The notes under the pieces were generated by a model. That model made no database searches. It was not told the origin of the DNA and saw only the letters and a program-made list of their open reading frames with translations. From NCBI RefSeq assembly GCF_000017505.1, contig NC_009675.1:3543001-3607000 (forward strand): DNA of 64,000 bases, written 5' to 3'. Position numbers and translations under genes: made by a program. This DNA comes from Anaeromyxobacter sp. Fw109-5. GTDB lineage: Bacteria; Myxococcota; Myxococcia; Myxococcales; Anaeromyxobacteraceae. This document shows, one piece after another, positions 14,190 to 53,218 of the stretch (position 1 is its first letter; each line of letters begins with the position of its first letter).

Positions 14190-17100
14190 TCACGGTGCGC
14201 AGCGGCTCGAGTGGCAGCGGCAGCAGCTCTCGGTGCCGGTGGTGTTCCCGGGGTTCAGGTAGGGCCGCCCCCAGACCGGCGCGTCACCGAGGTGGCAGGC
14301 CACGCCCGAGCACCGCTTCGTCGCCGGATCGTACGCCGCGCCGGACAGCTCTATGGAGAGCGTCGTGCCGTCGATGACGGCGCCGGCCGGGACCGCCTCG
14401 CAGAACTTCGCCGGCGCCACCCAGTACGGCCGCGTGGGCGTGTCCGGCGCGGGCGGCAGGCCCGAGCTCGGCGGGAGCGTCGTGCGCGGATCGAACGCGA
14501 CGTCGCGCCGGCCGTTGACGTGCGTGAGGGGCAGGACCCTCCCCGCACCCACCGGCGCCGCGCCCGCGGCGTGACACGTCCCGCACTGCGTCGCCTTCCA
14601 GAGCGGATCGGAGAGCCGCGCGGGATCGCCGCCGGGGAGCTGGTAGCTCCCCGTCGTGTCGAGCCAGTAGACGCCGGAGGGCCCGACCGCCGTGGGATCG
14701 GTCGTCGCGTAGTGGCAGGCCTGGCAGGTGATCGCCGCCGCCCCCACGCCCGGCTGCGCGCTGCCGTGCTTGCTCGCGTGCGCCGGCCCACCCAGGCCCG
14801 CGTAGTGGCCGAACTCGCGGCCGCGGTCGGTGAGCCCGAGGTGACCGTTCGCGTTCACCGCGCCCTCGCCGCCGGACGGGTACCGCGGCGGGTTCCCGTG
14901 GCAGCCGTCGCAGGCGAGGTCCGCCCCCGAGGTCCAGGCGGGCGCGAGCGCGTACGCGGGGATCGCCTGGCCCGAGGAGTGGCAGTACACGCCGCTGCAG
15001 CGGCCGGTCGACTCGTCGTAGGCGGCGTCCGGAGCGTTCCGCGCGCGCAGGGACCCCGTCCCCGCGCCGGCGGGGCTCAGCTCCACCTCGAGCTCGAAGT
15101 CCATGTGCTTCGCGGCGTCGAGCGGGTGACAGTGGCCGCAGCCGAACCGGTAGGCCGGGCCGCCCTCCGGCGCGTACGCCTCGAGGATCCGGAGGTCGCC
15201 GTACTGCGGCACGTCCGGCGTCGGGAAAGCCGCGTGCGCGAGGTGCGCGCCGTTCGTGGGCGGCACGCCGTGGCACGCGCCACACGTGCCGCTGGCGTCG
15301 AGCTTGCCGTCGATGTGGCGGCCTCCGGCGACGTCGATCGTGCCGTCGGGCTTCACCGTGTCGGGGTGGCAGCCGGCGCAGCTGGCCGCGACCGGATGGG
15401 GCGGCGGGGGCGGTGCGCCGTGGCAGGAGCCGCACGAGGTCTGGCCCGGCGAGACGTCCGTCCACGTGGGCGTGGTGAGGGCGCCGCCGGCCGCGAGCTG
15501 CGCGCCGTGACAGTAGGTGCTTGCGCAGGTCGCCTGCGAGGGGTCCCACGACGGCGCGGCGCCGAGCGCCGTCGCGAGCGGGCCCCACGCGAGGTCCACG
15601 GTCTCGTTCCCGTGCAGGAGCTCCGTCGGGACGACGTGGCACTCCTCGCATGGCACGGCGGCGCGGATCGGGCCGTCCTGGACGTGCTTCTGGTGCGCGC
15701 CGACGGCGAGCTCGGTGGTCTCGCTCTCGCCGCGCGTGCCCACGGGCGGCGCGGGATTCGCGGACGAGCCGTGGCAGGAGCGGCAGGTGAGCCCGGCCAC
15801 GTCGACGATCCCGTCGACGTGGCGTCCACCCGCGACGTCGATCTTGCCGTCGATCCGAACGGTGAGCGGATGGCAGGAGTTGCAGAGCGGGTTCTGCGGA
15901 TGCGGCGTCGGCGGCGGGAACCCGTGGCAGCTCGTGCAGGAGGTGTCGCCGGCCGAGACCTGCGTCCACACCGGCGCGTGGGTCGAGCCGCCCGCGCCCA
16001 GCGTCGCGCCGTGGCAGTAGGTGGAGCTGCACGTGGCGGTCGCGCGCGTCCAGGTGGGGGTCGCCGGCGAGGTGGCGGCGAGCCCTTCGAACGGCAGCGA
16101 GATCGTGCCGTTCACGTGGGTGAGGTCCGTCACCGGCGCGTGGCAGTCGCTGCACGTGAAGGCCTTGCGGATGTTCCCATCCACGACGTGCTTCTGGTGC
16201 GCGCCGACCGCGAGCTGCGTGGTCAGCGTCTCGCCGTTCGTGCCGAGCGGGGGCGCGGGGTTCAGGCCGTCCGTGCCGTGGCAGGCGGTGCACCCGCCTC
16301 CGTCCACCTGGACGGTCCCGTCGATGTGCTGCCCGCGGGCCAGGTCGATCACGCCCGTGGCGAGCACCGTGCCCGGGTGGCAGCGGTTGCAGTCGGTGTT
16401 CTGCGGGTGCGGCAGAGGCGGCGGGCTTCCATGGCAGGAACCGCAGCCGGTCGGGCCCGTGGAGACCACGGTCCACGTCGGCGCCTCGTTGGCGCCGCCC
16501 GCGGCGAGCGTCGCGCCGTGGCAGTAGGTGGACGCGCACGTCGCCCCGTTCCACACCGGGGTCGTCCCGCTCGAGGCGAGCCCGGTGAACGGCAGCGAGA
16601 TCGTGCCGTTCACGTGGGTGAGGTCCGTCACCGGCGCGTGGCAGTCGCTGCACGCGAAGGCTGCGCGGATGGTGCCCGTCACCAGGTGCTTCTGGTGTGC
16701 GCCGACGGCGCGCTGGGTGGTCAGGGTTTCCCCGTTCGTGCCGAGCGGCGGGGCGGGGTTCACGCCCTCGGTGCCGTGACAGGCCGTGCACCCGCCCCCG
16801 TCCACCTGAACGGTCCCGTCGATGTGCTGCCCCCGGGCCAGGTCGATCGCGCCGCTGGCGAGCACGGTGCCGGAGTGGCAGCGGCTGCAGTCCGTGGTCT
16901 GCGGATGCGGCAACGGCGGCGGCGCTCCGTGGCAGGAACCGCAGCCGGTCGGACCGCTGGACACGACGGTCCACGTCGGCGCCTCGTTGGCGCCGCCCGC
17001 GGCGAGCGTCGCGCCGTGGCAGTAGGTGGACGCGCACGTCGCCCCGTTCCACAGCGGGGTCGTCCCGCTCGAGGCAAGCCCGGTGAACGGCAGCGAGATC

Positions 17101-20100
17101 GCGCCGTTCACGTGGGTGAGGTCCGTCACCGGCGCGTGGCAGTCGCTGCACGCGAAGGCTGCGCGGATGGTGCCCGTCACCAGGTGCTTCTGGTGTGCGC
17201 CGACGGCGCGCTGGGTGGTCAGGGTTTCCCCGTTCGTGCCGAGCGGCGGGGCGGGGTTCACGCCCTCGGTGCCGTGACAGGCCGTGCACCCGCCCCCGTC
17301 CACCTGAACGGTCCCGTCGATGTGCTGCCCCCGGGCCAGGTCGATCGCGCCGCTGGCGAGCACGGTGCCGGAGTGGCAGCGGCTGCAGTCCGTGGTCTGC
17401 GGATGCGGCAACGGCGGCGGCGCTCCGTGGCAGGAACCGCAGCCGGTCGGACCGCTGGACACGACGGTCCACGTCGGCGCCTCGTTGGCGCCGCCCGCGG
17501 CGAGCGTCGCGCCGTGGCAGTAGGTGGACGCGCACGTCGCCCCGTTCCACAGCGGGGTCGTCCCGCTCGAGGCAAGCCCGGTGAACGGCAGCGAGATCGC
17601 GCCGTTCACGTGGGTGAGGTCCGTCACCGGCGCGTGGCAGTCGCTGCACGCGAAGGCCTTGCGGATGTTCCCATCCACGACGTGCTTCTGGTGCGCACCC
17701 ACCGCGCGCTGGGTGGTCAGGGTCTCGCCGTTCGTGCCGAGCGGCGGCGCCGGGTTCACGCCCTCGGTGCCGTGGCAGGCCGTGCACCCGCCCCCGTCCA
17801 CCTGGACCGTGCCGTCGATGTGCTGGCCGCGGGCCAGGTCGATCGCGCCGCTGGCGAGCACCGTGCCGGAGTGGCAGCGGCTGCAGTCCGTGCTCTGCGG
17901 GTGCGGCAACGGCGGCGGCGCTCCGTGGCAGGAGCCGCAGCCGGTCGGACCGCTGGACACGACGGTCCACGTCGGCGCCTGGTTGGCGCCGCCCGCGGCG
18001 AGCGTCGCGCCGTGGCAGTAGGTGGACGCGCACGTCGCGCCATTCCACACCGGCGCGGTGCCCAGCGAGGCGAGGCCGTCGAAGGGCATCGTGATCGTGC
18101 CGTTCACGTGGGTGAGGTCCGTCACCGGCGCGTGGCAGTCGCTGCACGCGAAGGCCTTGCGGATGTTCCCATCCACGACGTGCTTCTGGTGCGCACCCAC
18201 CGCGCGCTGGGTGGTCAGGGTCTCGCCGTTCGTGCCGAGCGGCGGCGCCGGGTTCACGCCCTCGGTGCCGTGGCAGGCCGTGCACCCGCCCCCGTCCACC
18301 TGGACCGTGCCGTCGATGTGCTGGCCGCGGGCCAGGTCGATCGCGCCGCTGGCGAGCACCGTGCCGGAGTGGCAGCGGCTGCAGTCCGTGCTCTGCGGGT
18401 GCGGCAACGGCGGCGGCGCTCCGTGGCAGGAGCCGCAGCCGGCCGGACCGCTGGACACGACGGTCCACGTCGGCGCCTGGTTGGCGCCGCCCGCCGCGAG
18501 CGTCGCGCCGTGGCAGTAGGTCGACGCGCAGGTCGTCCCGTTCCACAGCGGGGTCGTCCCGCTCGAGGCGAGCCCGGTGAACGGCAGCGAGATCGCGCCG
18601 TTCGCGTGGGCGCCGAGGTCGGTCACCCGCGCGTGGCAGTCGCTGCACGCGAACGCGGCGCGAATGCTGCCCGTCACCACGTGCTTCTGGTGCGCGCCGA
18701 CCGCCCGCTGGCTCGTCAGCGTCTCGCCGCGCGTGCCGAACGGCGGCGCCGGGTTGACGCCCGGAGTACCGTGGCACGCGGTACAGGTGCCCTTCCCTTC
18801 CGCCTGGACCGTCCCGTCGATGTGAAGGCCACCGGCGACGTGGATCCCACCGTCGGCGAGCACCGTGCCGGAGTGGCAGCGGCTGCAGTCCGCGCTCTGC
18901 GGATGCGGCAGCGGCGGCGGCGCCCCGTGGCAGGCGTCGCACGCGGTCGGGCCCTCGGACACGGAGGTCCACACCGGAGTCGTCGCCGTCCCGCCTCCGA
19001 GGGCGAGCGTCGCGCCGTGGCAGTAGGTCGACGCGCAGGTCGCGCTCGCACGCGCCCACGCGGGCGTGGTGCCCCTCGCGGCGAGGGGTCCCCAGTCGAC
19101 GTCCACCTCGCCGTTCGCGTGCAGGTACTCCGTCGGCGCGGGCGTCACGTGACACTCGACGCACTCGATGGCGCTGCGAATCGGGCCGGTGCGCACGTGC
19201 TTCTGGTGCGCGCCGACCGCGATCGCGGACGTGTCGCTCTCCCCCAGCGTGCTCAGCGGCGGCGCGGCGTTCGTCTCGGAGCCGTGGCACATCGAGCAGG
19301 TGAGCGGCGCGAGATCCAGCGTGCCGTCGACGTGCTGGCCACCGGCGACGTCGATGCCCGTCCCGTCCGGCTTCAGCGTGCCGGGGTGACACGGCCGGCA
19401 GTCGGCTCGCTGCGGGTGCGGCAACCCCGGCGGCGCCAGGTGGCAGGCGCCGCACGAAGCCTGCGTGCCGTCCACCGTCGTCCAGACCGGCGCCGTGAGC
19501 AGCCCGCCGCCGCCCGCGAGGGTGGCGCCGTGGCAGTAGGTGGAGCTGCACGTCGCGCTGCCGGCGTCGAACGAAGGCGTCGCGCCGTCCGCCGTGGCGA
19601 GCGCGCCCCAGTCGAGATCGACCGTGCCGTCCGCGTGGAGCGTCTCCGTCGGGAGGGCGTGACAGTCCTCGCACCTCAGCCGCGCCCGGATGGCCCCGTC
19701 CCGCAGGTGCTCCTGGTGCGCGCCGACCGCGACCGTCGTGTTCGCGGTGTCTCCGGCCGTGCCGATCGGGGGCGCGGCGCTCGTCGCGGAGCCGTGGCAG
19801 CCGTTGCACCCGAGCGGCTTCACGTCGACCTTGCCGTCCACGTGGGTGGCCGCGACGACCGCTCCGGCGGAGTAGCCGACGTGGCACCGCCCGCAGTCGG
19901 GGTTCTGCACGTGCGGGGGCGGCGGAGGGAGGCCGTGACACGCACCGCACGCGGCCTGGGACGCGCCTCCGGTCCACACCGGCGCGGTCAGGGCGCCCCC
20001 GTGGAGGGTCGCGCCGTGGCAATAGGTGGCGCTGCAGCTCGCCGTGGCGCGGAACCACTCGGGCGACGCGCCGCCGGCGCGCGCCAGCGCCCCGAAGCTG

Positions 20101-20721: not shown

Positions 20722-21026
20722 GGGGTCGAGGTCGCGGTCGCGGTCGGCGTTCGACGATCGACGTTCGACGGTCGGTCGCGGTCGAGGGCGAGGTCGAGGT
20801 CGAGGTGGGGGTCGAGGTCGGGGTCGAGGTCGGGGTCGAGGTCGGGGTCGAGGTCGGGGTCGAGGTCGGGGTCGAGGTCGAGGTCGAGGTCGAGGTCGGG
20901 GTCGGGGTCGGGGTCGAGGTCGAGGTCGAGGTCGAGGTCGGGGTCGGGGTCGAGGTCGAGGTCGCGAGGTCGCGGTCGCGAGGTCGAGGTCGCGAGGTCG
21001 AGGTCGCGAGGTCGAGGTCGCGGTCG
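20722..21026 (+). repeat. GGTCGN hexamer array 2
   Basis: Tandem GGTCGA/GGTCGG/GGTCGC units fill this stretch, irregular at the left end (GTTCGACGATCGACGTTCGACG) and regular from about 20776. Units such as GAGGTCGCGAGGTCG near the right end break the 6-base phase. The array ends directly against the stop codon of the aldo/keto reductase gene. Reading frames through it are artefacts. Confidence 0.95.
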
Positions 21027-47159: not shown

Positions 47160-49052
47160 TCAGCGGCGGGCCGCCGCGTCGAGCGCGGCGAGGAGGTCGC
47201 GGTGCGACGCCGCGAACGCCGCGCCGCGCGAGCGGAGCGCCCGCGCGAGAGCCCCCGGCACGTCCAGCGCGCGGGCTCCCCGGACCCGATCCGCGTGCTC
47301 GCGCCGCACGCCGTGCGGGATGCGCAGCGACCAGTTCTGGTCCGACACCGTGCCCGGGACGTTGTAGGGCGCGCGGGACCCGAGCAGGTCGGTGAAGTAG
47401 ACCATCACGTTGCGCGCCGGGCCGACGAACAGCTCCGCGAAGCGCGCCTGCGCGAGCGCGGCGGGATCGGCGGCGACCGAGCGGATCCACGCGGCGCGGT
47501 CCTCGCCCTCCGCGAGGAGGCGCGAGGCGAGGTACGCCGCCTGCTCCCCCGAGCCGCCCGACCCGACCCACCGGTCCGCCACGCTCCAGATCGTCGGGGT
47601 GTCGTGACTCCCGAGCATGATCCAGTCCTCGGGCGCGGCGTTCTCGCCGCGGTAGACGTCGGCCGCGTCGTCGAGGCGCGCCTTCTGCGTGACGCGGAAC
47701 CGGCCGAGCCCGTGGCGCGCCGCCACCCTCGAGAGCGGGTACGGCAGCGTGCTCAGGATCTCGCAGGCGACGTCGCGCCGGTCGGGCGCGGCCTCCACCA
47801 CGAGGTCGAGGAGCGCGGCGTGGCGCGCGACCTGCTCCTCTTCGAGCGCGACCACCCACCCGTCCGCGTGGCGCTGCAGCTTCCGGTCCAGCTGCTCGGC
47901 GCGCGCGATGGCGAACCCGGCGAGGTCGGGCACGTCGGGGGAGCAGAAGAGCCGCGCGCCCGCCCGCACCGCCGCGGCGGGGTCCCCGCCCGCGCGGTAC
48001 ACCCACGGCGCGACGAGGCCGTGCGGGTGATCCACCCGCAGGCCGTCGTGCTCGCTCATCACCTTCCGGACGCGCGCCCGCAGGAACCGCGCGGCGGGGC
48101 CCTCCTCGCGCACGCCGGACGCGTCCACCTCTGCGTACGCGCGGGGGTCGAGGACCGCGAACCCCCAGGCCTGTCCGCCCGGATCCGTGCGGCTCGGCGG
48201 CGCGCCCATGAGCCACCCGTCGAGGAGGAAGCGCTGCGCGGCCCAGGCGTCCCGCTCCGACATGCCCACCTGGAAGTCGGCGAAGAGCGCGAGCCCGAGC
48301 GACCGCGCCCGCGCCCGGAACGCGGCGTGCTGCTCGTGCGCGAGGAGCTGGACGAGCGCGTACGCCTCCACCTCGTCCCGGTGCCGGCCGAGCAGCTCCT
48401 CTCGCCGCGCCGCCGCAGCCGCTTCCGCGCCCGGCGCGGGTGCGAGCAGGGACCGATCCGCCGCGCTCGGCCACGCGCGCCAGGTGGCGCCCCCGTGCGA
48501 CGCCTGGAGGATCTCGTAGAGCGCGTCGCGGACGAGCCAGTCGGCGTGCTCGGCCCGGAAAGCGTCGAGCCGGCGCGCCAGGTCCGCGGCCGAGCCGCGG
48601 GCGCCCGCGGCGCGCTGCGCCCGGAACCGCCCCGCCGCCTCGGCGAGAGCGCGCCGCGCGGCCTCGAAGGCGTACCCGTAAGCGACGCGATCGCCGCGCG
48701 GCCGCCCCTCCACGAGCGCCGCCAGGGTCTCGGCGCGGAGCAGCTCCGCGCCTTCGGGGCGGGTGAGCGGGAGGAGCGCGATGGACAGCGGGCTCCGCGA
48801 GAAGAGCGTCCCGTCGTACGGCGAGGGGTTGCAGGCCGAGGTGGCGCCCGACGGCCCGAGCTGAAGCCCGTCGAAGCCGAGCTCGGAGGCGAGCTCGAGC
48901 AGCTCGACAGCGCCCTCCGCGCACGGAGTACCGCGCCCGATGTCCTCCGAGGGGTGCGCTGGGAAGGCGGCGTCGTGGACGCCGAGGAGGAGGCGGCGAA
49001 CCCCGAGCGCGTCGAGCGCCTCGCGGACGAGCCGGCGGGCGGGTGAGGACAA
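47160..49052 (-). CDS. malQ: 4-alpha-glucanotransferase (GH77, MalQ-like), divergent
   Basis: The 630-residue protein fits amylomaltase: ELGFDGLQLGPSGATSACNPSPYDGTLFSRSPL at the N-terminal end of the barrel, FADFQVGMSERDAWAAQ, the nucleophile region DGLRVDHPHGLVAPW, IMLGSHDTPTIWSV and the terminal DQNWSLRIP. The usual AEDLG acid/base segment reads VACEILS here, so activity should be checked. The frame forces a TTG start at 49052, since a stop lies five codons upstream and no ATG/GTG follows nearby. It moves alpha-1,4-glucan segments and releases maltose, feeding the maltokinase. Confidence 0.85.
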   Translation of the reverse strand: MSSPARRLVREALDALGVRRLLLGVHDAAFPAHPSEDIGRGTPCAEGAVELLELASELGFDGLQLGPSGATSACNPSPYDGTLFSRSPLSIALLPLTRPEGAELLRAETLAALVEGRPRGDRVAYGYAFEAARRALAEAAGRFRAQRAAGARGSAADLARRLDAFRAEHADWLVRDALYEILQASHGGATWRAWPSAADRSLLAPAPGAEAAAAARREELLGRHRDEVEAYALVQLLAHEQHAAFRARARSLGLALFADFQVGMSERDAWAAQRFLLDGWLMGAPPSRTDPGGQAWGFAVLDPRAYAEVDASGVREEGPAARFLRARVRKVMSEHDGLRVDHPHGLVAPWVYRAGGDPAAAVRAGARLFCSPDVPDLAGFAIARAEQLDRKLQRHADGWVVALEEEQVARHAALLDLVVEAAPDRRDVACEILSTLPYPLSRVAARHGLGRFRVTQKARLDDAADVYRGENAAPEDWIMLGSHDTPTIWSVADRWVGSGGSGEQAAYLASRLLAEGEDRAAWIRSVAADPAALAQARFAELFVGPARNVMVYFTDLLGSRAPYNVPGTVSDQNWSLRIPHGVRREHADRVRGARALDVPGALARALRSRGAAFAASHRDLLAALDAAARR

Positions 49053-49165
49053 GGCGCCGGAAGGCTAGCACGGGGGACGTGAAGGGCCCTCGCACGGCGA
49101 CTGGGCGTGGGAGCCGGCGGGCGGACGCTTCGGCGCCGCAAACCGACTACGGTCACCGCCGGCGA

Positions 49166-49473
<308 letters not shown>

Positions 49474-49490
49474 TTAGAAATTTCCGCTCG

Positions 49491-49545
49491 TCCCGAGCGT
49501 AGCGCCGTCCTGAGCCTGGCGAAGGACGGCGCGGAGTCGAGGGGC
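49491..49545. repeat. REP-like palindromic intergenic repeat
   Basis: CGTCCCGAGCGTAGCGCC is followed by GTCCTGAGCCTGGCGAAGGAC and GGCGCGGAGTCGA. The two CCGTCCT/AGGACGG and GGCGC/GCGCC pairs can fold into a hairpin. The TGAGCC-GCGAAGGA and CGGAGTCGA phrases recall widespread intergenic REP-like sequences. Related phrases recur at 53221 and 55523, each next to hexamers. Confidence 0.5.
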
Positions 49546-49658
49546 GACCCCGACCGCGAGGACGTGAACCGCTCAATCAGCCGCCGCGCCGGGCTTTGCC
49601 CGTCACGGCGGCTGCAGCGCGTGGTCCTCGTGAATGGAGGACGGGTTCGAGCTTGGGC

Positions 49659-49707
49659 GTTTGGCATCGCGCCTCCTGTCCGGGGTGAAGGAGGCGCGAT
49701 GCCAAAC
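49659..49707 (+). promoter_or_regulatory. Palindrome enclosing SD and ATG of four-helix-bundle gene 1
   Basis: GTTTGGCATCGCGCCTCCT at 49659-49677 and its exact complement at 49689-49707 (19 of 19 pairs) enclose an 11-base loop. The right arm holds AGGAGG and the ATG at 49699, so the folded mRNA would bury both. The left arm offers a mirror-image AGGAGG and ATG reading leftward on the other strand. It could be a translational switch, a protein-binding site or the end of an element. Confidence 0.8.
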
Positions 49708-50199
49708 ACCGTTCTCGTCCCGCTGAAGCCCGATTCCGGTCACTCTTCCCCCACCCTCACTCCCTCCCCCTCCCCCTCTCCCTCTCCCTCTCCTTCTCCC
49801 TCCCCCTCTTCCTCTCCCTCTTCCTCTCCCTCTCCCTCTTCCTCTCCCTCTCCGTCACCCTTCCCCTTCCAGACCCTCGACGTCTACCGCTGCGCCCGAG
49901 AGCTCGCGGTGCGCGTTCACCGCGCCCACCTCTCCGACGCGGAGCTCCGCGATCAGGCCACCCGCGCGTCCAAGAGCGCGTTCCTGAACCTCAGCGAGGG
50001 ACTCCCCGACGATCGCGTCGCCATGCGGCGCAAGTACTTCCTCGCCTCCGACGGCTCGCTCCACGAGGTCGTCGCGGCGGTGGATCTCGCAGCCGCCATC
50101 GGGGCGGTCCAGGAGACCGACGCAGCCGAGATCCTCGCCCTCGCCGACCGGCTCCGGGCCATGCTGCGCGGGCTGCTCCGCAGGGCCGCCACGCGTTGA
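49699..50199 (+). CDS. Four-helix-bundle protein (23S rRNA intervening-sequence protein family) with Ser-Pro repeat
   Basis: The 166-residue product has a C-terminal four-helix-bundle domain of the IVP/TIGR02436 family: FPFQTLDVYRCARELAVRVH, LRDQATRASKSAFLNLSEGL, KYFLASDGSLHEVVAAVDLA and ALADRLRAMLRGLLRR. Relatives are encoded inside 23S rRNA insertions or free in genomes, and Avd of diversity-generating retroelements shares the fold. Before the domain, residues 22 to about 53 are a Ser-Pro run encoded by a CTCCCT-type microsatellite (49748-49856), probably length-variable. AGGAGG lies 4 bases before the ATG, inside a palindrome. It converges on a second family member. Confidence 0.85.
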   Translation: MPNTVLVPLKPDSGHSSPTLTPSPSPSPSPSPSPSPSSSPSSSPSPSSSPSPSPFPFQTLDVYRCARELAVRVHRAHLSDAELRDQATRASKSAFLNLSEGLPDDRVAMRRKYFLASDGSLHEVVAAVDLAAAIGAVQETDAAEILALADRLRAMLRGLLRRAATR

Positions 50200-50210
50200 A
50201 CGCAGCACGA

Positions 50211-50241
50211 GGCGCGGTGACCCGAGCGAGGTCACCGCGCC
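50211..50241. terminator. Bidirectional terminator between the two four-helix-bundle genes
   Basis: GGCGCGGTGACC and GGTCACCGCGCC form a perfect 12-bp stem around a 7-base loop. It fills the 50-base gap between the convergent stop codons, so it can end transcription from both sides. Confidence 0.75.
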
Positions 50242-50249
50242 GCTCCGGT

Positions 50250-50660
50250 CTAGCGCACCAGCCCCGTCAGCATCGCCACGAGGCGGTCCGCGATCCGGGC
50301 GACCTCCTCCGCGTGGGCGGCGGAGGTGTCCCCGCACAGCGCCGCGATCTCGACCGCCGCCGCGGCCTCGACGGTCTCGGCGCGGGCGATGGCGAACGCG
50401 CGGGCTTTGTCGCCCCTCGTCACTCGCCCGGCGCCCTCCGCCGTGTTGAGGCAGGCGGACTTGGCCGAGCGGACGGCCTCGTCACGGAGCTTCGCGTCGC
50501 GGATGGGCGAACCGAGGACGGCGAGGAGCAGGTCACGCGCGACGGCGAACGCGTGAAGCTTGTGGTGAGGGAGGACGCGGACGGGGGAAGAATTGCGGGA
50601 GCGGGAGGAGGGGACGGTGGAGCGGGCTGCGTCTGCAAGGGAAGCGAGGTTGTTGGCCAT
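50250..50660 (-). CDS. Four-helix-bundle protein (23S rRNA intervening-sequence protein family), second copy
   Basis: The 136-residue product belongs to the same family: HHKLHAFAVARDLLLAVL, LRDEAVRSAKSACLNTAEGA (the conserved R-A/S-x-S-A-x-L-N-x-x-E-G phrase), KARAFAIARAETVEAAAAVE and ARIADRLVAMLTGLV. An N-terminal 30 residues rich in Ser, Ala and Arg precede the domain, without the Ser-Pro run. The ATG at 50660 follows AAGGAG and lies within a 22-bp palindrome. It is convergent with gene 1, and the two proteins are clearly diverged, so this is not a recent duplication. Confidence 0.85.
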   Translation of the reverse strand: MANNLASLADAARSTVPSSRSRNSSPVRVLPHHKLHAFAVARDLLLAVLGSPIRDAKLRDEAVRSAKSACLNTAEGAGRVTRGDKARAFAIARAETVEAAAAVEIAALCGDTSAAHAEEVARIADRLVAMLTGLVR

Positions 50661-50708
50661 GGGGCGGCTCCTTTCACCCCCGGGAGAAGGAGCCGCCCCA
50701 TGACCAAC
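50652..50708 (-). promoter_or_regulatory. Palindrome enclosing SD and ATG of four-helix-bundle gene 2
   Basis: Arms of 22 bases at 50652-50673 and 50687-50708 are complementary at 21 positions around a 13-base loop. The arm used by the minus-strand gene contains AAGGAG-CCGCCCC-ATG; the other arm gives a mirror-image AAGGAG and ATG reading rightward from 50700. The sequence is unlike that of the palindrome at 49659, yet the layout is the same. Confidence 0.8.
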
Positions 50709-50775
50709 GACTGTGAGCCCCCGGACGAAGACCGTCCGCCCGAACGGCGCGTGGACCCGAGAGCCGCAGGCGCAG

Positions 50776-50795
50776 TGCCACCCACCGGTGGCACG
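50776..50795. terminator. Small hairpin before hexamer array 4
   Basis: GTGCCACC and GGTGGCAC form a perfect 8-bp stem with a CACC tetraloop. It lies between the palindrome of four-helix-bundle gene 2 and array 4. It may end outward transcription; there is no T run. Confidence 0.4.
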
Positions 50796-50832
50796 AGCCT
50801 GCCCGGGATGAGAGCGCCGTTCACGACCAGTG

Positions 50833-51004
<172 letters not shown>

Positions 51005-51199
51005 TGTCATTCGTCACATCGGTTCGCGCTGGACTCGGGACGAGGTGCCGACCGCGCGCCCGCGGTGGGCACGCGCGAGGGAGCAGTACGAGCCAGGGAA
51101 AGGGGCCTACGAGGGGGCCGGAGGGCCGGCGTCGCCGCGCGTCCGCCGCGTCGCCGGAAGACGCTGCGGTCGGCTTTGCTCCCGTTCCGCCGACCGCGG

Positions 51200-52375
51200 T
51201 CACGTTGCCCACAAGCCCTGCTGAATGGCAGCTGGCGCGGCGCCGGCGTACCCCGTCCGCTCGGAGGCGCTCTCACGCCGGAAACGATCCATGTGCTCGC
51301 GCCCGTAGGTCTGTTCGGCGTGCAACAGGTTGTGCGACCTGCAGGCGACCCGGAGATTCTCGAGCGTCGAGAGACCGCCCAGGGCCTGCGGGTGGATGTG
51401 GTCGAGCTCCAGCTGCCAGCGGCTGTTGCAGCGCCGCCCGTCCGGAGCGACCCAGGCGCAGCGTCCCCCGTCGCGCTTCCAGACCTCGCGCCGCACTATC
51501 GCCGGGATCGTGCTCGTGGGCGCGGCGGGCTCGGCAGAGGGCCGTGGGTCCCGGTCCGCCTTCCGCTGACGCTGCAGCTGCGGCGCGACCGCGCCCTTGC
51601 GCTTGCCGTGCTTCTCGATGGCGCAGCGGATGGCCTCGCGGAGCACCGCCGCGAGGTCGCCGTCCGGGATCTTGTGCGAGAGCAGCGCGGCGAGCGTCTC
51701 GAGGTCCTCCTTGCAGGACGCGTCGATGGTGACCCGCAGCGACCAGCCGCTCTCGCTCACGGCGCGGGTCTCCGCCCGCGTCTTCGGGCGGGGAACGTCG
51801 GGCAGCGCGGAGACCGTGGGCGGCAGCGACCCACCAGCAGCCGCTGGCGGCGCGGGGATCGCCTCCTGCGGCTCGGCAGGTCCGGCATGGACTGTCGCCA
51901 GCGGCAGCGCCGGGGCGCTCGCGGCTGGAGCGCGGTCGGGCAGCTTGCGCAGGCCCGCCCGCGGAGCGGTGCGCGCCTGGAGCGAGGCGACGAGGTGATC
52001 CACCTCGGCCTTGGTGCGGTAGGCGGCACGGCCGACGAGGTCGGGCAGGTTCTCCTCGGTCAGCACCTGGCCGAGCAGCTGGACGGTGGAGATGCAAAGG
52101 CGGCCATCCCGAAGCGCGCCCTCGAGACTGGGGAACCGGCGCAGCACCCGCATCGCCTGGATGCGTCGCCCCGCAGCGCCCTCGCGCAGGTGGAGCACCT
52201 CCAGGCAATACGCCCAGAGCGAGGGGTACCCGGCCTCCACGTACGCGCGGCGGCGATCGAACACCTCGAGGTGGAGGAGGAACTCGACCTGGACGTCGCG
52301 CTCCTGGCCGGCGAGCTCGCGCAGGCGCTGGGCGAGCAGGGTCGAGTCGAGGGCGGAAGGGGCGACAGCGGGCAT
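51200..52375 (-). CDS. HNH endonuclease domain protein, intact copy
   Basis: The 391-residue product begins with a helical region (LRELAGQERDVQVEFLLHLE, YVEAGYPSLWAYCLEVLHLR, AGRRIQAMRVLRRFP), a Pro/Ala-rich linker, and a second conserved part (GWSLRVTIDASCKEDLETL, LLSHKIPDGDLAAVLREAI). It ends in an HNH nuclease: VRREVWKRDGGRCAW, LELDHIHPQALGG, and NLRVACRSHNLLHAEQTYG, with the His-Asn-His residues and a cysteine pair. It should cut DNA in a metal-dependent way. AAGGAGG lies before the ATG at 52375. Upstream sequence is open in frame into array 5, but only because of base composition. Confidence 0.88.
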   Translation of the reverse strand: MPAVAPSALDSTLLAQRLRELAGQERDVQVEFLLHLEVFDRRRAYVEAGYPSLWAYCLEVLHLREGAAGRRIQAMRVLRRFPSLEGALRDGRLCISTVQLLGQVLTEENLPDLVGRAAYRTKAEVDHLVASLQARTAPRAGLRKLPDRAPAASAPALPLATVHAGPAEPQEAIPAPPAAAGGSLPPTVSALPDVPRPKTRAETRAVSESGWSLRVTIDASCKEDLETLAALLSHKIPDGDLAAVLREAIRCAIEKHGKRKGAVAPQLQRQRKADRDPRPSAEPAAPTSTIPAIVRREVWKRDGGRCAWVAPDGRRCNSRWQLELDHIHPQALGGLSTLENLRVACRSHNLLHAEQTYGREHMDRFRRESASERTGYAGAAPAAIQQGLWAT

Positions 52376-52395
52376 GGTGCACCTCCTTGTGCACC
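52376..52395 (-). promoter_or_regulatory. Hairpin presenting the SD of the HNH gene in its loop
   Basis: On the minus strand GGTGCAC and GTGCACC form a perfect 7-bp stem around the loop AAGGAG, with the ATG directly after. The decayed copy keeps the same stem with loop AGGAG (29778-29796). The ribosome-binding site would thus be shown in the loop, not hidden. Confidence 0.6.
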
Positions 52396-52885
52396 GTTCG
52401 TAACACGCGATTTGCGGCTCTCCTGGAACGCACCAGGCTCGCGCCTGCGCTGCGTTCCGGGCCCGCCCCTTCGCCATCCACGCGGTGCGCCGGACGCGCA
52501 CGGCGCGGCCTGCCTGCGCTCGCGAGGAGCGTGCTCTCGACGTGCCGCGGACGTCGAAGCACGTTTCGCCTCGAACCTCGTCAAGAGGGCAACGTTCACC
52601 CACCGCAACTGGGACTCGCGTGGCTCGGCAAGAGCTGTCGCTGGAGATAGCAGGGACTCGTAGTGAATGCCGCCGTCGGCCGAGCGGCGCGCAACTTCCT
52701 CGGACCTGCTCTGCCCGCTCGTCCAGTCCTCGCGCCGACGGCGACGAAGACCCGCCGCGTGCCATGCCCGAGGCGCGCCGGGAACCGGGCGTTTCTCCCC
52801 TCGACGCCCGAGCCCTCTGCGTCGAGCGGCGGCACACAACCCCGCGCGCGCGCGTGCTGTCGCCGTGGGATGTGACGAATGAAGA

Positions 52886-53218
52886 GACCCCGACCCCGAC
52901 CCCGACCGCGACCGCGACCCCGACCGCGACCCCGACCGCGACCCCGACCGCGACCCCGACCGCGACCCCGACCGCGACCCCGACCGCGACCCCGACCGCG
53001 ACCCCGACCGCGACCCCGACCCCGACCCCGACCGCGACCCCGACCGCGACCGCGACCCCGACCGCGACCCCGACCGCGACCCCGACCCCGACCCCGACCC
53101 CGACCGCGACCCCGACCCCGACCGCGACCCCGCGACCTCGACCGCGACGACCCCGACCGCGACCCCGACCGCGACCCCGACCGCGACCACGACCGCGACG
53201 ACCCCGACCGACCGACCC
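52886..53218 (-). repeat. GACCNC hexamer array 5
   Basis: About 55 units of GACCCC and GACCGC, mostly alternating, with phase breaks near 53130-53215 (GCGACCTCGACCGCGACGACC). It begins 3 bases after the right terminal repeat of the HNH element and ends about 44 bases before the stop of the GMC oxidoreductase gene. Confidence 0.95.

Follow-up and report, generated by a model that had tools for sequence, protein, structure and literature searches.

A repeated element in Anaeromyxobacter sp. Fw109-5 carrying two convergent S23/IVP genes, each with its start inside a palindrome that may mask translation

The locus described here represents one of several copies of a small element, in which two convergent genes for S23/IVP proteins are bounded by inverted copies of a conserved hairpin (hairpin A) and lie within arrays of hexamer repeats. 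It is situated in a window of 64,000 nucleotides, the whole stretch of DNA that was analysed. Each of the two genes begins inside a palindrome, hairpin B (B1 at gene 1, B2 at gene 2), and a comparison of leader sequences indicates that hairpin B probably works in cis to mask the S23 mRNA from translation. All results are computational. The features of the locus, in window coordinates, are as follows.

49168..49472, no strand: hexamer array GACCCC/GACCGC, left flank of the element
49577..49615, + strand: hairpin A at the left element end, pointing inward (covariance model R1, 40.8 bits, E 1.2e-6)
49659..49707, + strand: start hairpin B1, with the SD AGGAGG and the ATG of gene 1 within the 3' arm (49689-49707)
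49699..50199, + strand: gene 1, S23/IVP type 1, 166 aa (PF05635 E 9.6e-14, TIGR02436 E 5.1e-11)
49760-49865: in-frame CTCCCT hexamer array in the N-terminal linker of gene 1
50211..50241, no strand: 12-bp inverted repeat between the convergent genes (arms 50211-50222/50230-50241), without a T-tract
50250..50660, - strand: gene 2, S23/IVP type 2, 136 aa (PF05635 E 8.1e-10, TIGR02436 E 1.4e-10)
50652..50708, - strand: start hairpin B2, with the SD AAGGAG and the ATG of gene 2 within the 3' arm; one T.G mismatch
50766..50802, - strand: hairpin A at the right element end, pointing inward (covariance model R1, 46 bits, E 8.1e-8)
50832..51003: hexamer array, right flank of the element, in the same strand orientation as the left array

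The element and its two proteins

S23/IVP proteins are annotated in many genomes and their structures have been solved; to our knowledge, they have no known function. The preliminary description of this locus had placed both genes in the TIGR02436/IVP family with a four-helix-bundle fold, and this placement held, since both proteins score above the curated cut-offs of PF05635 and TIGR02436 and the AF2 model of the gene 1 product (pLDDT 85) consists of four long, confident helices. With this model as query, the top solved fold in Foldseek was 2gsc from Xanthomonas (E 3.2e-5), followed by 2rld, then by Avd (4dwl) and by the Avd subunits of the ribonucleoprotein of a diversity-generating retroelement (DGR; 8ub7). 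As modelled, the gene 1 product is a four-helix bundle like 2gsc and 2rld.

The two proteins are distinguished by their sequence patterns, FQTLDVY...SEGLP...RRKYF in type 1 (gene 1) and LPHHKL...AEGAGR...DKARAFAIARAE in type 2 (gene 2), and the two types are also found paired and convergent in other genomes, including in another family. They are the only recognised genes of the element, which has no recognised transposase. The CTCCCT array of gene 1, situated just past the start hairpin, encodes a Pro/Ser linker whose length differs between copies. Between the convergent genes, the inverted repeat that had been proposed as a shared 12-bp terminator does exist, but it has no T-tract and was not called as a terminator.

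In the host genome (5.28 Mb, one contig), eight TIGR02436 matches form four convergent pairs at unrelated places, and these belong to four complete copies of the element with about 93-97% identity over the genes. At 4.414 Mb lies a fifth, degenerate copy in which the gene 2 hairpin is still present. The copy at 4.838 Mb (L011) has its two convergent genes separated by an insertion of about 200 nt, located where gene 2 has its stop codon.

Start hairpins at the two genes

As reported in the preliminary description, gene 1 starts in a 19/19 inverted repeat with a loop of 11 nt (arms 49659-49677/49689-49707) and gene 2 in a 21/22 inverted repeat with a loop of 13 nt (arms 50652-50673/50687-50708). 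These are the top two inverted repeats of the 64 kb window, with a score of 19 each against 14 for the next, and the best score in five Markov resamplings of the window was 16. The computed RNA folds of the B1 and B2 regions reach -55.6 kcal/mol (z -7.7) and -57.0 kcal/mol (z -6.8), respectively, and in these computed folds the SD of both S23 genes is buried by mRNA structure. The two palindromes had been called unrelated, which is correct for the stems, different from each other within one element, but not for the loops, which are alike (GTCCGGGGTGA vs CTCCCGGGGGTGA). Likewise, the mirror-image SD and ATG noted in the other arm are present, but they are an automatic result of complementarity.

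From this arrangement we infer that the hairpin forms in the mRNA and silences translation, and why such silencing might be selected. In the mRNA, B would bury the SD and the start codon in about 20 base pairs, and transcripts that contain both arms, above all those produced by read-through from a neighbouring gene, would be translationally silent. An SD hairpin of this strength is expected to be closed at equilibrium, so translation would depend on an opener, on cleavage of the hairpin or on transcription that begins within the palindrome, and S23 protein would be scarce as long as none of these applies. For a mobile element, the simplest benefit would be protection from expression through read-through from its neighbours.

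Several other candidates were considered for this region. A scan for sigma-70-like promoters in the loop and leader, which is weak for a GC-rich genome, found none. Translational coupling to an upstream ORF, with a TGA in the loop as its stop, was rejected because about one third of the loops lack this TGA, its frame is not constant and no upstream ORF is always present. A known Rfam RNA was also rejected, as a search of 49000-51300 returned only sub-threshold matches to microRNA/sRNA hairpins. A repeated CCGGGGCTGCAAGGAG pattern, tried as a further start hairpin, proved to belong to a multicopy HNH-endonuclease-like gene.

Start hairpins in related genomes

The survey covered 149 distinct S23 domains obtained from whole-genome searches. 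Among them, 38 different start palindromes were found in four families (f1, f5, f7, f9) with the start codon in the 3' arm, in the same order as in the window; their arms measure 15-27 nt and their loops 10-22 nt, and 767 of 791 pairs are Watson-Crick. When the stem positions of these palindromes were aligned on the ATG and compared pairwise, 5,247 comparisons differed on both sides with pairing intact and 411 on one side, counts that are partly circular because the palindromes were found by complementarity. An SD-burying helix (score at least 11) was present at 62 of 141 S23 genes and at 2 of 99 other ORFs from the same sequences and the window; paralogues are counted separately in the former figure and are not independent, yet the stem sequences differ much across lineages. 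About half of the surveyed S23 genes fall below this helix score. Many Myxococcota S23 genes keep a hairpin that buries the SD, and often the ATG, while its sequence turns over by paired changes. This agrees with the earlier claim of a structure conserved without its sequence, as the start hairpin is kept in homologues and its sequence has changed on both arms.

The design of the hairpin varies. In the genus g6, the SD lies inside the arm and the ATG just outside, and in leaders of the g6 type the arms are 81-95 nt apart. SD-burying hairpins of different design are also present in other families of the phylum (G189, G190, G182, G050), including a stem as strong as -97 kcal/mol in G189, and hairpins in G050 in which several stem pairs covary and one-sided U-G changes occur too. 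In a Bacteriovoracia MAG, one palindrome (25/13/25) serves two divergent S23 genes, with both ATGs in use, which indicates that the palindrome tracks the gene start and not the element end. The preliminary description had counted a lack of start palindromes in most homologues against its proposal; such a lack is seen in two Bacteroidota genomes, where the S23 leaders have no such hairpin and no unusual fold, but not inside the clade.

Since palindromes near gene starts are often operators, it was considered whether B is bound as double-stranded DNA by a dimeric regulator, possibly S23 itself, that represses transcription. The small, self-contained genes would suit such an arrangement. However, the arm spacing ranges from 10 to 22 nt, besides the far wider leaders of the g6 type, the palindrome sequence is free to change and S23 has no known DNA-binding motif, which together make a DNA operator very improbable. 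The variable loop length and the tolerance of a large insertion suit a hairpin better than a dimeric operator on double-stranded DNA. A translational mask accounts better than an operator or a transposon end for a structure that tracks the gene start whichever way the gene points, contains the SD and is tolerant of variation in sequence and loop.

The few mismatches in the Myxococcota B stems include three T.G and four C.A, with no excess of G.U over A.C, so RNA-level selection is not established there. In the Bacteriovoracia S23 pairs L235, L244 and L245, the flanking genes have a constant orientation, but the 13-nt loop of one copy can be the reverse complement of that in another. This loop inversion shows that recombination between the arms can occur, and single template-switch events may therefore account for part of the covariation. 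Taken further, the palindromes might have no function of their own: template switching would copy one arm from the other and so maintain their likeness. This seems most unlikely, as it would leave unexplained why the arm includes the SD in all lineages, why the rate at other ORFs is 2%, and why the stems of other classes, though of different design, still bury the SD.

Hairpin A and the element ends

Comparison of the leaders revealed a second hairpin upstream of the start hairpin. Hairpin A, of about 37-45 nt, combines a conserved core, CGCGCCA...TGTCAC, with an outer stem that covaries: 9 of 14 pairs have changed on both sides, 93.4% of cells are paired (77.1% in shuffles), and a covariation score of 0.377 compares with one of 0.097. 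Both its sequence and its structure are preserved in front of many S23 genes. In the host genome, the covariance model matched A nine times (E 0.01 or better), all at these elements, with the copies at the two element ends in inverted orientation; the left A of the 4.838 Mb copy, which carries an extra base, is missing among the matches at this threshold. The complementary element ends, with inverted hairpin A at both, would be able to form a stem.

Inverted pairs of A also occur in the genome G039 around elements with one remaining gene and around an internally deleted copy. Because A is inverted at both ends even around such copies, the element ends are marked by A and not by the start palindrome. 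The preliminary description had proposed an element bounded by the start palindromes: the element exists, but its ends carry inverted hairpin A instead, and in Bacteriovoracia the start palindrome is central in the repeated unit, which does not support a role as boundary. The internally deleted element (L265, G039:C39:15500-16550) has both A ends and a start palindrome intact, as for a non-autonomous derivative. In four other copies of this genome (L076, L223, L224 and L228), the start palindrome has been lost along with the start codon.

Hairpin A also bears on autoregulation by S23, which would be the main rival to a translational mask: an S23 pentamer would bind its own leader, with hairpin A or the combined fold of A and B as candidate site, and so control the translation of its own mRNA. 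Hairpin A would be the natural candidate ligand, and since the sequence of the start hairpin varies freely, it would also be the better candidate site if S23 binds in a sequence-specific manner. The conservation of A upstream of many S23 genes is consistent with such a role, as is the fold that S23 shares with Avd, a part of the DGR reverse-transcriptase ribonucleoprotein (4dwl, 8ub7), and A can nest within B, being found in the loop of B in G021 and in one G014 copy. However, B has no conserved sequence, the B stems of the two genes in an element differ, and a stem so stable should close without any protein. Autoregulation is regarded as unlikely.

Mobility and insertion sites

The element is apparently mobile. 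Two sister genomes give a clean pair of sites: between yajQ and rimO, G003 carries the element and G006 does not. This intergenic region is also empty in G000, G001, G002 and G005. The empty site in G006 reads GAGACC|TACCCC and the occupied site in G003 reads GAGACC-array-element-array-TACCCC; since GAGACC is joined directly to TACCCC in G006, the hexamer arrays are also absent from the empty site. Likewise, the copy that adjoins yebC has no counterpart at the equivalent position in G006.

The searches revealed no mobility enzyme shared by all carrier genomes. A reverse transcriptase acting in trans was rejected because none (PF00078) was above cut-off in seven of the nine carrier genomes (G000, G003, G004, G009, G011, G039 and G062). 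Y1 (RAYT) transposases are not common to all carriers: a match is above cut-off in G003, G004, G039 and G062, matches are below cut-off in G000, G009 and G011, and there is none at E 0.001 in G027 and G029. A search for plasmids found nothing.

Given this mobility, the palindromes could act as DNA, in the form of a cruciform or a single-strand hairpin, in the movement of the element, with the overlap of the start codon being secondary. The near-perfect Watson-Crick arms without G.U excess, the loop inversion between Bacteriovoracia copies and the insertion polymorphism of the elements all point in this direction. Against it, B tracks the gene start, lying near the ends where the genes converge and in the centre where they diverge; the ends carry hairpin A, which is kept even after loss of the partner gene; and in g6 only the SD remains in the arm. 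A role of B as DNA in movement is thus held to be improbable, and a translational mask remains the preferred reading of hairpin B.

Comparison with known systems

Among the closest known systems are the 23S rRNA intervening sequences (IVS) with an S23 ORF, known from Leptospira and Coxiella, with which the element shares an S23/IVP protein, a small size and selfish appearance, complementary ends and structured RNA (PMC4990558). It differs in that it lies between protein genes, has two S23 paralogues instead of one, occurs in several copies per genome and has each gene start probably masked by its own hairpin. Accordingly, the Rfam search of 49000-51300 gave no rRNA match, and the relatives sit between protein genes such as yajQ/rimO.

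Hidden transposase starts or ribosome-binding sites occur in the insertion sequences IS10 and IS200. In ISPpu9, a structure in the 5'-UTR blocks the ribosome-binding site (PMC8450116). The present element resembles these three in the mRNA structure at the SD region and in the poor translation, predicted here, of a mobile-element gene. Unlike them, it lacks a recognised transposase, its hairpin includes the start and the first codons, and each of its two genes has one.

Another example is provided by the diversity-generating retroelements, whose Avd has a four-helix-bundle fold and is found with RNA in the solved ribonucleoprotein; in contrast, seven of the nine carrier genomes have no reverse transcriptase above cut-off. 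REPIN/RAYT units share the inverted imperfect hairpins at both ends and the internally deleted copies (PMC3116915), while the present element is longer, has its own genes and has no Y1 transposase common to its carriers.

Each component has precedents on its own, whether S23 protein, intervening sequence or masked start, but we know of no earlier case of their combination outside rRNA: no description of S23 elements with masked starts was found in the literature searched, which comprised open-licence papers. It may even be, though this is put forward only tentatively, that these elements form a class of mobile elements whose sole proteins are a pair of S23 paralogues acting on structured ends (hairpin A), both start-masked, with the rRNA intervening sequences as one specialised branch. 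The element places S23/IVP proteins in a genetic setting other than rRNA, a movable unit whose ends are defined, in which hairpin A is a conserved RNA motif and candidate ligand and start masking is a strong prediction about expression. Moreover, the dozens of naturally replicated SD-masking hairpin sequences would be useful for gauging how complete the shut-off is and what opens them.

Hexamer arrays and other features of the window

Further hexamer arrays occur in the window at 289-559, 20724-21026 and 52886-53199, which indicates that the arrays are not specific to the element; five long arrays of the GACCCC type lie within the 64 kb. In other genomes, the arrays beside hairpin A use other hexamers (GGGAAA, GAGAAC, GACCTC), and the period is still 6.

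The HNH-endonuclease-like gene mentioned above (51200-52400, - strand; L047-L056) has at least nine near-copies in the genome and is flanked here by hexamer arrays. Its start, ggtgcac-AAGGAG-gtgcaccATG, forms a small hairpin whose loop contains the SD. Finally, a unit of 498 bp is repeated about six times at 16077-19043 of the window.
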